The position numbers were made by a program, and so were the translations under genes. This document shows positions 2,715 to 46,404 of a stretch of 64,000 nt of DNA, piece after piece. Each line of letters starts with the position of its first letter. Positions within the stretch are counted from its first letter, which is position 1. Source of the stretch: Bacteroidales bacterium. Lineage in GTDB: Bacteria > Bacteroidota > Bacteroidia > Bacteroidales > UBA932. Location: contig JAGCVS010000005.1 of NCBI GenBank assembly GCA_017962235.1, forward strand, positions 62,001 to 126,000, given 5' to 3'. The notes below the pieces were generated by a model. It was given only the letters and a program-made list of their open reading frames with translations. It did no database searches and had not been told where the DNA came from.

Positions 2715-3113
2715 TTACTGTTGCTCTATCTTGATCTGGAGTATCTCGTTGCGACCGTTCACGGTTTTCACGAAAATCGTTACCCTGTACTGGTGTCCGC
2801 CGGCGTCCAAATCGCCTGAAGCGTAGCTCATAGGGGGACGGGCGCTCTTGTGCACCACCTTGAAAGATTTGGGGGTATTGTTTGTGAAAAAGTTGCGCAT
2901 AATAAGCCGGGCCTGGTTGCGGGTGCAGTTGTTCACTGTGCCCTGCACATCAACCTGGAGGTTGTCTGCAAACCAGACGGAGAGTTTGTCACTGTCGCCA
3001 GCCTCGAAATACTTGGCTATAGGGATAAATACATCGCCATCCTCTACCGCCGAGGCATTAAATTTGAATGCCGAAGCGAGCAGCAACATTGTTATCAGCA
3101 GATATTTTTTCAT
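2715..3113 (-). CDS. Secreted DUF4783-like protein
   Basis: 132-aa exported protein. Residues 1-22 form a classical signal peptide (KK, then a hydrophobic stretch, then SASA-type cleavage). The rest contains PIAKYFEAGDSDKLSVWFADNL, then RNQARLIMRNFFTNNTPKSF, then a C-terminal VTIFVKTVNGRNEILQIKIEQ strand pair. This resembles the Bacteroidetes DUF4783 family, an NTF2-like fold of unknown function. No catalytic residues are evident. It sits divergently from rlmH. Confidence 0.75.
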   Translation of the reverse strand: MKKYLLITMLLLASAFKFNASAVEDGDVFIPIAKYFEAGDSDKLSVWFADNLQVDVQGTVNNCTRNQARLIMRNFFTNNTPKSFKVVHKSARPPMSYASGDLDAGGHQYRVTIFVKTVNGRNEILQIKIEQQ

Positions 3114-3167
3114 ACCTTTATTTCTGTTATCACCGCAGATTAATTAACAAAAACCAAGCCACACCCG

Positions 3168-45022: not shown

Positions 45023-45043
45023 AATAGGCGCCCGTATGGGCAC
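45023..45043 (+). repeat. Direct repeat, copy 2
   Basis: Reads AATAGGCGCCCGTATG then GGCAC; one base differs from copy 1 (44925-44945). Its end runs into the left arm of the palindrome at 45037-45087. Confidence 0.8.
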
Positions 45044-45087
45044 AAGAAAAGAGACAGCTGATTCAGCTGTCTCTTTTCTTGTGCCCA
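45037..45087. terminator. 25-bp-arm perfect palindrome; probable terminator of tRNA-Leu, bidirectional
   Basis: Left arm 45037-45061 and right arm 45063-45087 are exact reverse complements around a single central T (45062). The core AAAAGAGACAGCTGA..TCAGCTGTCTCTTTT looks like a terminator on both strands. The right arm's outer GCCCA is also the 3' acceptor end of tRNA-Leu on the minus strand, so the hairpin and tRNA acceptor stem compete for the same bases. Confidence 0.75.
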
Positions 45088-45265: not shown

Positions 45266-45342
45266 TCCTCATTAGCTCAGTTGGTTAGAGCACCTGACTG
45301 TTAATCAGGGGGTCCTAGGTTCAAGTCCTAGATGAGGAGCCA
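45266..45342 (+). tRNA. tRNA-Asn (anticodon GTT)
   Basis: 77 nt including encoded CCA. Acceptor TCCTCAT/ATGAGGA, D arm with AGCTCAGTTGGTTAGAGC, anticodon arm CCTGA-CTGTTAA-TCAGG, T arm with GGTTCAAGTCC. CCA at 45340-45342 is genomic, unlike in the neighbouring tRNA-Leu. Confidence 0.97.
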
Positions 45343-45344
45343 AA

Positions 45345-45382
45345 GCGGACAAATTGTCAAAATCGGCAGTTTGTCCGTTTTT
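45345..45382 (+). terminator. Terminator of tRNA-Asn
   Basis: CGGACAAA (45346-45353) pairs with TTTGTCCG (45370-45377), followed by TTTTT. It isolates the tRNA from the unit that begins at 45395. Confidence 0.85.
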
Positions 45383-45394
45383 GTATAGAAAAAG

Positions 45395-45425
45395 CTTGTT
45401 TGTCATGAAAAACATAGTACCTTTG
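45395..45425 (+). promoter_or_regulatory. Promoter of the structured RNA/small ORF unit
   Basis: CTTG at 45395-45398 (one mismatch to TTTG), 19-bp spacer and TACCTTTG at 45418-45425 (exact -7 match). A transcript starting about 7 bp downstream would begin inside the first strand of the closing helix at 45429. Confidence 0.7.
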
Positions 45426-45428
45426 CAT

Positions 45429-45580
45429 TGTCGTTAGGTTATTTCCACTCCGGTGGATATAGTCTCAGAAACAAAAGGTGTTTCAGCCCACACTGAAATA
45501 CCTTTTTCATTAGAAATATAGCCGCAGGGGTACTTCTTTACACCTCCAAAATCCTTTACGAGACTATAAATCTAACGACA
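45429..45580 (+). ncRNA. Candidate structured RNA (multi-branched leader of a small ORF)
   Basis: Hand folding gives nested perfect helices. P1: 45429-45440 with 45569-45580 (12 bp, one G-U). A side hairpin TCCAC-TCCG-GTGGA (45444-45457) has a UNCG-type tetraloop. P2: TATAGTCTC 45458-45466 with GAGACTATA 45560-45568 (9 bp). P3: 45473-45486 with 45493-45506 (14 bp, one G-U, loop CCCACA). P4: weaker, 45527-45531 with 45542-45546. P1 closes on the A of the start codon of the following ORF. No Rfam family recognised. It could be a cis-acting leader, an independent RNA, or part of a mobile unit. Confidence 0.65.
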
Positions 45581-45726
45581 TGAACAGAAAGGTTTTTTGC
45601 ATTCGTGTGAGCCTGTGCCAAGGGTATAAGGCTCCTAAACTTGTCAAGGTGAAGGCGTATAGGCGCGTTTGCAATGGCAAGGTCGTGAAAGTCCGTTCTC
45701 ACTATCGTTTCGTTGTGGGACGATAG
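45580..45726 (+). CDS. 48-aa basic peptide, downstream of structured RNA
   Basis: Too short for usual ORF calling. Starts MNRKVFCIRVSLCQGYKAP and continues through KVKAYRRVCNGK to end VRSHYRFVVGR. It is rich in Lys/Arg (16 of 48) with three Cys and no signal peptide or TM, suggesting nucleic acid binding. The pattern K-A-Y-x-R...N-G-K...V-R-x-H-Y-R resembles short basic motifs seen at the ends of some phage and mobile-element proteins. The last codons lie in a hairpin (CTATCGT/ACGATAG, 45702-45708 with 45720-45726). It has its own promoter and terminator, so the ORF is likely real. Confidence 0.6.
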   Translation: MNRKVFCIRVSLCQGYKAPKLVKVKAYRRVCNGKVVKVRSHYRFVVGR

Positions 45727-45776
45727 ATAGTTTGGACAGACTGCGCCGATAAGGTGCTGCTACTCGACCTGCGGCT

Positions 45777-45804
45777 AAGGGGGGCTTCGGCCCTCCTTTT
45801 CTTT
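45777..45804 (+). terminator. UUCG-loop intrinsic terminator
   Basis: AAGGGGGGC-TTCG-GCCCTCCTT (9-bp stem, one G-U) followed by TTTTCTTT. It closes the unit that begins at 45395. A further hairpin precedes it (GCCG..AGGT with ACCT..CGGC, 45745-45775). Confidence 0.9.
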
Positions 45805-45850
45805 ACACTGATCTACCATCATTAACGCTGGGGAACCTCAACGTGCTTCC

Positions 45851-45882
45851 TTTTGGTATACAAAAGAAAAAGAGTAACTTTG
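45851..45882 (+). promoter_or_regulatory. Promoter of the DUF4279 gene
   Basis: TTTTG at 45851-45855, 19-bp spacer, TAACTTTG at 45875-45882; exact consensus, 24 bp before the ATG. Confidence 0.85.
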
Positions 45883-45906
45883 TAATAGAGAACCATTTAT
45901 TAAAGC

Positions 45907-46404
45907 ATGACTGAGACAACAGTATACATAGCCTTCCAAAGCAAGAGGCATATGGACGTCAAAGCCTTATCAGACTTGACAGGTGTTGAGCCGACGACCG
46001 TATGGAAGAAAGGCGACCCTATCGTTTATAATGGTCACCCTACATTAATTGTCAATGATAAGGGCGAACAGGCACCAAAGACCTATTCCTTCAGTTCATT
46101 CGAATTTGCGCTTCCTATTTACAGAGGCTTAAATGTAGACCGTCTGTTTAACAAATTGATGCGGGTCATACAGCATCCTAAGGAAGTTGGTGAGTATTGC
46201 CGGAATCACGGAATCAGGGTTCATTTGATGGTTGTGGTCTATGGCATTACCGATACTTACTCAATCCCGTCTATGTTTTACACCAATAAGTTTGTCGATT
46301 TCTTATCATTGCTGGGCGCGACTATAGACCACGATTTATATTCCGAGCCTTGGCAAATGGGCGAAGACTACGATAAGGAATGGGGGATTAAGATTTTAAA
46401 GTAA
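45907..46404 (+). CDS. DUF4279-like protein
   Basis: 165 aa, no signal or TM, cytoplasmic. It resembles the DUF4279 family: VYIAFQSKRHMDVKALSDLTGVEPTTVWKKGDP at the N-terminus, then KTYSFSSFEFALP and a C-terminal VHLMVVVYGITDTYSIPSMFY before a last helix. Family members often sit in accessory regions or near contact-dependent toxin immunity genes; the role is unknown. The DNA is clearly lower in GC than the core genome around it. Its stop overlaps the next start by 1 bp (TAATG). Confidence 0.7.
   Translation: MTETTVYIAFQSKRHMDVKALSDLTGVEPTTVWKKGDPIVYNGHPTLIVNDKGEQAPKTYSFSSFEFALPIYRGLNVDRLFNKLMRVIQHPKEVGEYCRNHGIRVHLMVVVYGITDTYSIPSMFYTNKFVDFLSLLGATIDHDLYSEPWQMGEDYDKEWGIKILK

Follow-up and report, generated by a model that had tools for sequence, protein, structure and literature searches.

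In the mRNAs of ribosomal proteins S15 (rpsO) and S4, a pseudoknot lies at the start region of a gene for an RNA-binding protein that is autoregulated. In tmRNA an open reading frame (ORF) is embedded among pseudoknots, and the tisB mRNA, which encodes a type I toxin, reportedly needs a pseudoknot for translation. The toxin mRNAs hok and aapA3 are held inert by 5′-3′ pairing (PMC6733600). The timP mRNA requires a pseudoknot for translation initiation (PMC11228461), which is a warning that a pseudoknot can open an mRNA and not just close it. The nearest named arrangement to the one described below, a structured leader before a short peptide of no known family, is the cyanobacterial Downstream-peptide RNA (RF01704), for which PMC2864571 reports conservation of the 5′ UTR only.

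Here we describe a conserved RNA-plus-peptide family that has no name in the collections searched. One copy lies at 45395-45804 (+ strand, 410 nt) of the window, the whole 64,000-nt stretch of DNA that was analysed. Like the type I toxin mRNAs (hok, aapA3, timP, tisB), it appears to combine a small ORF and long-distance pairing or a pseudoknot with a sequestered start region, and the 49 ORFs of the family counted as intact (43-58 aa) are within type I toxin size, under about 60 codons. However, type I toxins are described as hydrophobic and membrane-acting whereas the unit peptide is basic, judged by charge alone. A pseudoknot across the entire ORF also sets the unit apart from these mRNAs, and in timP and tisB the pseudoknot serves translation whereas that of the unit is proposed to act against it. 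With the S15 and S4 mRNAs the unit shares a pseudoknot or helix over the start region (P1 and P5 below), but it is dispersed in multiple copies, has a second pseudoknot across the ORF and encodes no ribosomal protein; a ribosomal-protein leader was rejected since the peptide gives no ribosomal protein family in Pfam or NCBIfam. Unlike Downstream-peptide RNA, to which it has no covariance-model match, the unit includes the ORF and the 3′ end in its fold and occurs in a different phylum. An ORF among pseudoknots also recalls tmRNA, but ARAGORN, applied to the window and to 51 unit loci, detects no tmRNA and none of its tRNA-like domain. The composition and layout of the unit are new, and the likely logic of translational caging is familiar. 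No description of the family was found in the literature searched, which took in a minority of subscription papers.

Architecture of the unit

The predicted RNA is about 370 nt long and starts from a single promoter (Table 1). A pattern search 100-210 nt 5′ of the ORF found the −7 box TA..TT[TC]G[TC] in 53 of the 56 units compared. In these 53, T stands at −31 in 50 units and at −30 in 43, and G stands at −29 in 41, which corresponds to a −33 TTG consensus; the Bacteroidetes promoter consensus used for comparison is the one quoted in PMC7366714. The whole 410 nt folds with a z score of −6.7 on the + strand versus −3.8 on the other strand. The leader (45430-45582, 153 nt) reaches −52 kcal/mol at a z score of −7.3, with none of 200 dinucleotide shuffles as stable. 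The observation of a structured unit is real and beyond chance.

A preliminary description of this DNA had proposed a closed transcription unit, and this is borne out by the presence of promoter, folded leader, ORF and terminator. The CTTG/TACCTTTG promoter that it named agrees with the consensus of the 53 units, and its UUCG-loop terminator is called by the terminator scan. P1, the UNCG-type hairpin, the 9-bp P2 and the 14-bp P3 all exist where it had placed them, P1 indeed closes on the start codon, and the Lys/Arg-rich 48-codon ORF is confirmed. Its author had recognised no Rfam class; at the gathering threshold the window gives two tRNAs only, and region 45340-45900 gives no match even at E up to 5.

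Table 1. Features of the unit and the adjacent tRNA gene (all positions refer to the window).
Feature	Position	Strand	Sequence	Remarks
tRNA-Asn	45266-45342	+		ARAGORN; ends 84 nt before the unit, same strand
Bacteroidetes-type promoter	45395-45425	+	CTTG (−33), TACCTTTG (−7)	−33 at 45395-45398, −7 at 45418-45425
P1, 5′ strand	45430-45440	+		pairs with 45569-45579; likely at or near the transcript 5′ end
UCCG-capped hairpin	45444-45457	+	TCCAC-TCCG-GTGGA	fold
P2, 5′ strand	45458-45466	+	TATAGTCTC	inner part of the P1 stem; pairs with 45560-45568, 9 bp
P3 hairpin and U run	45473-45507	+	AAAAGGTGTTTCAG/CTGAAATACCTTTT	helix 45473-45506, 14 bp; intrinsic-terminator-like
PK, 5′ strand	45519-45528	+	TAGCCGCAGG	pairs with 45768-45777 across the whole ORF
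Conserved motif	45529-45534	+	GGTACT	just 3′ of the PK 5′ strand
P5, 5′ strand	45548-45557	+	AAAATCCTTT	one bulged T; just 5′ of the P1 3′ strand
P2 and P1, 3′ strands	45560-45579	+		end on the last base before ATG
ORF, 48 aa	45580-45726	+	MNRKVFCIRVSLCQGYKAPKLVKVKAYRRVCNGKVVKVRSHYRFVVGR	peptide profile, dN/dS, phrog_21154 match
P5, 3′ strand	45588-45596	+		inside the ORF, codons 3-6
P6 hairpin	45609-45634	+	GAGCC/GGCTC	in the ORF; 45609-45613 with 45630-45634
P8 hairpin	45743-45757	+	GCGCC/GGTGC	between the stop codon and the PK 3′ strand
PK, 3′ strand	45768-45777	+	CCTGCGGCTA	3′ of the ORF
Intrinsic terminator, UUCG loop	45777-45804	+		hairpin 45777-45798; terminator scan; 97% paired in group A

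Comparative evidence for the fold

The 56 units, which are partly non-independent, are what remains of 64 distinct peptide matches after removal of eight weak or truncated ones. They fall into three sequence groups built on one plan: A, which is window-like, B and C. Four alignments were used. A6 was realigned to the covariance model and so leans to structure, whereas A3 (group A, 21 units), A4 (group C, 21 units) and A5 (leader, 13 units) are unfitted MAFFT alignments. Cells with two-sided changes, the counts of which are not probabilities because the shuffles ignore relatedness, number 218 against 69.5 in shuffles for A6 (slid controls 46-67), 129 against 61.7 for A3 (27-56), 74 against 38.6 for A4 (31-40) and 31 against 14.5 for A5, with none of 500 shuffles as high in any alignment. 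For A5 one slid control is near-equal in two-sided pairs (16 versus 17), with 20 cells versus 31. In A6, G-U pairs outnumber A-C mismatches by 56 to 22, an excess that points to an RNA of the + strand.

The preliminary description had suggested a search for compensatory changes in P1, P2 and P3, and these are found; the structure is kept by such changes. In A6 all 11 pairs of P1 and all nine of P2 have two-sided changes, and seven of 11 and seven of nine do so on the unfitted group A alignment. P3 has 92-93% of its cells paired. The UCCG hairpin is less clear and only weakly kept, with 61% of cells paired when realigned and 38% on the unfitted alignment. In group C, just 46% of P1 is paired on the unfitted alignment and P4 as placed there is weak (46% of cells).

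Two pseudoknotted helices that were absent from the first reading, PK and P5, come out of the comparison. For PK, eight of ten pairs are two-sided and 86% paired in group A (21 units), and in group C (21 units) the helix is 100% paired with four of nine pairs two-sided; in that group it runs itself into the final U tract. P5 has five of nine pairs two-sided in group A (81% paired) and five of seven in group C (92%). When PK and P5 strands were swapped between units of a group, own partners were only modestly better, which is expected of strands that are alike, and the evidence for both helices therefore comes from the group A and group C alignments. By this comparison the fold extends beyond the 5′ leader, with PK as a long-range pseudoknot spanning the ORF. 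Two further hairpins lie within and behind the coding sequence: P6 is 95% paired in group A and its equivalent 96% in group C, each with one of five pairs two-sided, and P8 is 76% and 94% paired, each with three of five. Since helices involve coding sequence, the same bases are constrained by both peptide and RNA fold. At the end of the PK 5′ strand and in the motif that follows it, four positions show no variation among the 21 sequences of group A: G45528, G45530, T45531 and C45533.

In the comparison P5 and P1 form an H-type pseudoknot. They interlock at the initiation region with the start codon placed between them, an arrangement that would fit the translational control that had been suggested from the helix at the ATG.

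P1 differs in sequence among most copies while complementarity is retained. Averaged over 53 units, the own P1 partner gives −23.5 kcal/mol versus −11.5 for swapped partners; it ranks best in 28 units and among the top three in 48, and is poor in five. The same holds within a single genome (G006) that has five copies (own −21.3, cross −10.3 kcal/mol), where one cross pair (−19.1) is nevertheless stronger than the own pair of that unit (−17.9). The P1 pairing is thus largely copy-specific. Of 47 ATG-started units, 27 have the start-codon complement CAT among the first 14 nt behind the promoter, versus a control rate of 0.15; the other 20 have no CAT at the 5′ end.

P3 looks like a terminator placed inside the leader. 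A U run follows it in units of all three groups, and at least five T occur in the 8 nt past the hairpin in 40 of 53 units, with the hairpin chosen by script and wrong in a few. In the window, a standard scan did not call P3 as a terminator. Leader-only copies were identified by eye in genomes G018, G019 (two), G004, G001 and G145; a further one, in G150, lacks the promoter. Several of them end at P3, and other matches consist of the P3 hairpin alone or are degenerate. Such copies may be functional short RNAs or the remains of deletions. One leader-only copy, with promoter, hairpin and P3 terminator, occupies the same place in two species (L163 and L164, about 1440-1560), near a ferredoxin-like gene as judged by eye, and may be an independent gene for a short RNA.

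The peptide

The window copy has 14 Lys/Arg residues and no Asp or Glu, and net charge across the units ranges from +8 to +15. The kept core is VKVKAYKRxxNGKVxKVRSHYR. Examined by dN/dS, as the preliminary description had proposed, the peptide is under purifying selection, with a median dN/dS of 0.38 (282 pairs with dS <0.9) and a pN/pS of 0.50 over all pairs. Close pairs have ratios of synonymous to non-synonymous changes of 9:1, 5:1 and 6:1. Some pairs exceed a dN/dS of 1, where the helices may constrain synonymous sites.

By a lenient criterion (an ATG near the N-terminus and an open frame up to the end of the core), 49 of the 56 ORFs are intact. The others have a lost or alternative start (one with GTG in place), a frameshift, a stop or a truncation. 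The preliminary description had named homologues with a broken ORF and lost helices as an argument against the unit. Broken ORFs and 5′-only copies do occur, but homologous loci and covariation exist and the broken ones are a minority. Because of these seven ORFs and the 5′-only copies, the RNA may in places persist without the peptide, or be decaying.

AlphaFold2 predicts four short strands, with a pLDDT of about 91 for residues 21-40, 57-63 before and 75 after these (mean 75.4). The sole consistent family match is to phrog_21154, a profile without assigned function, which matches 23 of 27 members at E ≤0.01 (best E 2e-9) and the window peptide at E 2.7e-6 over residues 14-43 only. Pfam gave no convincing family (best E 0.054, in two of 27 members). 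The best NCBIfam match had an E of 0.008 in one of 27 members, and the names were unrelated, one being uS13 at E 0.056; the window copy matched nothing in either collection. Against PDB sequences the best E was 0.83, and PDB and viral fold searches returned nothing at E ≤0.001; the best viral fold match (E 0.12) is a Paracoccus phage protein with the same motif. From the net charge we suggest that the peptide probably binds nucleic acid, and it may close its own cage.

The phrog_21154 peptides of Marinitoga camini viruses have the core motif in common with the unit peptide, and their gene lacks such a leader by eye. In Marinitoga camini virus 2 (L152, about 2940-3130) and virus 1 (L204) the two arms of a perfect 12-nt inverted repeat, TTGGGAGTGCAG/CTGCACTCCCAA, flank this gene; the repeat is identical in both viruses and equalled by 2-5 of 300 shuffles. 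An enclosing helix is not a general property of phage homologues, since three others lack it.

Distribution and dispersal

When 60 related genomes were searched at the DNA level, five further members of the genus yielded seven clear homologous loci (E ≤6e-9) between them, and the peptide is found in 13 of 26 genomes of the genus, including the one studied here. With a 27-row profile the peptide is detected in 119 of 398 genomes of the host family, in seven of 25 genera, with one to six matches per genome. Beyond the family it fades (five of 393 genomes of the order, two of 296 of the phylum), and the non-family matches are weak (E 4e-4 or worse). A GTDB-wide scan gave 20 loci, of which 19 are Bacteroidales, mostly from ruminant or rumen records; the remaining one, in Saprospiraceae, has no RNA unit by eye. 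Complete units occur on two IMG/VR contigs, which does not make the unit phage-borne; phage records contained no close relative (E 3 or worse) and plasmids none.

Near-identical copies occur in unrelated flanks. L063 and L086 are 92% identical over a 438-nt stretch that begins 207 nt before the start and reaches 82 nt beyond the core, and L103 and L107 98% over 521 nt. Such cases show transfer of the module, or rearrangement at its edges. Other copies (L048/L055/L061 and L070/L084) are at orthologous places, and because these were kept over species not all units behave as recent invaders. In the set L171-L174 the upstream flank is common to L171, L173 and L174 at about 99% and differs in L172. 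Downstream the four are common up to one point past the terminator, after which similarity is lost; in two pairs a weaker similarity can be followed over roughly another 30-40 nt. Different genes follow at this right edge, as if it were a recombination or insertion point.

A same-strand tRNA gene (Asn, Leu, Met, Arg or Cys) lies 65-336 nt upstream in nine of 53 units, so the adjacency noticed in the window recurs in the family. About eight of these cases are independent, because L063 and L072 share flanking sequence. Control tRNA density, taken from the window and 23 unrelated loci, is 0.2% of strand positions; were it as high as 1%, the chance of nine tRNA-adjacent units would still be 3e-9. 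In relatives with printed sequence, the same tRNA is followed by other sequence. A tRNA attachment site was rejected, as the last 12 nt of the tRNA are not repeated, and no second copy of the tRNA end was found, in the nine loci or the window.

Among 92 scanned of 105 neighbour proteins, no Pfam family among those shown occurs more than twice, which gives no sign of a conserved neighbour or defence island. No recurrent transposase was found among the 92 (resolvase 2, phage integrase 2; single-member families were shown in part). Terminal inverted repeats reach p ≤0.05 in six of 51 units, with a mean p of 0.45 and no common repeat; this is no general excess and no signal of mobility. Both findings speak against an insertion sequence or MITE. 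At the edges of the window unit there is a 16-nt imperfect inverted repeat (45379-45394/45850-45865, p 0.04).

Possible mechanisms

The comparison shows the fold, the peptide and the dispersal, and from the anatomy we infer silencing, a trigger and an activity of the peptide. In view of the above it is somewhat probable that the unit is a mobile and autonomous mini-gene, caged by the fold of its own mRNA and off by default. The folded mRNA would be translationally silent because two interlocked helices enclose the region where initiation takes place. Opening of the cage would need a signal, which could be processing, a bound ligand or protein, or loss of binding by the peptide itself, and synthesis of the peptide would follow. 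P3 may end many transcripts near +75, yielding a short leader RNA that would carry the P1 5′ strand and with it a sequence antisense to the start region of the same unit.

There are several rival readings. One is autogenous regulation, in which the basic peptide would attach to the P1/P5 pseudoknot of the mRNA that encodes it and thereby prevent initiation, in the manner of ribosomal proteins S15 or S4, making the unit a self-limiting source of an RNA-binding peptide. A start codon between two interlocked helices, the 14 Lys/Arg residues without any acid in the window copy and the predicted four-stranded beta core with its confident residues 21-40 are all consistent with this. However, the P1 sequence changes from copy to copy and the peptide core does not; the peptide would have to recognise either a shape or the conserved P3 loop or GGTACT motif. 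In addition, the Pfam, NCBIfam and PDB values given above contain no convincing RNA-binding family. We consider autogenous regulation a tentative and less likely possibility.

Alternatively, the unit could be a selfish element resembling a type I toxin system, in which a harmful peptide is encoded by an inert folded mRNA and the P3-ended leader RNA acts in trans as antisense repressor. The long-range 5′-3′ pairing and the sequestering of the start would parallel hok and aapA3 (PMC6733600). The patchy occurrence in one to six copies per genome, some of them broken, the largely copy-specific pairing and the existence of leader-only copies also fit. What makes a type I-like element doubtful is the peptide, which by its charge is basic and not hydrophobic, together with the conservation of some copies at orthologous places over species. 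Termination at P3 is only predicted, and leader-only copies may be mere deletions. Searched for the main promoter type, the opposite strand has −7-like boxes in none of 22 group A, two of seven group B and five of 21 group C units, which is no conserved antisense promoter of that type for a canonical antisense antitoxin. In three group C loci (L059, L060, L099) such boxes lie 55-68 nt into the ORF and may represent an antisense promoter of a subgroup.

The self-caged mini-gene can be drawn in a more specific form, as a new minimal mobile element of Bacteroidales. This would be an RNA-peptide module of about 430 bp that prefers sites behind tRNA genes and carries its off-switch on the same strand, as a P3-ended RNA with a copy-specific antisense 5′ arm; read-through would give a pseudoknot-locked mRNA for a basic nucleic-acid-binding peptide. 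With all these parts together, we consider this form rather unlikely.

A riboswitch for a small effector peptide has a low probability. Here a metabolite would bind the leader core (P3 loop, GGTACT) and open or close the cage. Unpaired motifs are indeed conserved amid variable helices, a terminator-like leader hairpin would fit attenuation, and structured RNAs before ORFs for 17-100 residues are a precedent (PMC2864571). But the fold differs from a 5′ aptamer in that it takes in both ORF and 3′ end, the Rfam search was empty even at its most permissive threshold, no neighbouring gene recurs among the 92 scanned, and some genomes contain divergent copies.

That the RNA itself is the product, as a non-coding RNA or ribonucleoprotein with the ORF as partner protein or incidental, is improbable: P5 and P6 run through the ORF, 5′-only copies exist and a copy that has lost the ORF end (L205) retains both PK strands and the terminator by eye, but synonymous changes dominate in close copies (e.g. 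9 to 1, 5 to 1), most ORFs are intact and ORF-less copies are a minority of those found.

The family is new to the Rfam copy searched, and two of its helices are pseudoknotted, covary and either include coding sequence or bridge it. Bacteroidota mRNAs are described as lacking classical Shine-Dalgarno sites (PMC7366714), and the unit offers a small experimental system for ribosome entry into, or exclusion from, a folded mRNA of this phylum. A cyanobacterial type I system has been presented as the first outside three phyla (PMC12390103), and putative type I systems were noted in B. thetaiotaomicron (PMC7366714). Against this background, a mobile gene for a small peptide, caged and present in one family of Bacteroidales, would serve as a test case. 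The link to same-strand tRNA genes gives a concrete starting point for finding out how the units spread.

Some neighbouring sequences deserve description. In one genome, two loci (L074 and L075) have a common downstream stretch about 80-400 nt past the ORF core, which we take to resemble the C terminus of a protein of the Rpn/PD-(D/E)XK nuclease type. In the window the next gene (45907-46401) encodes a DUF4279 protein (E 9e-9); it is present in three of 26 genomes of the genus, so the region after tRNA-Asn is variable. On the other side lie a 28-nt direct repeat (44925-44952/45023-45050, 89%) and, at 45037-45087, a 25-bp perfect palindrome with a 1-nt spacer, the second arm of which overlaps the 3′ end of tRNA-Leu.
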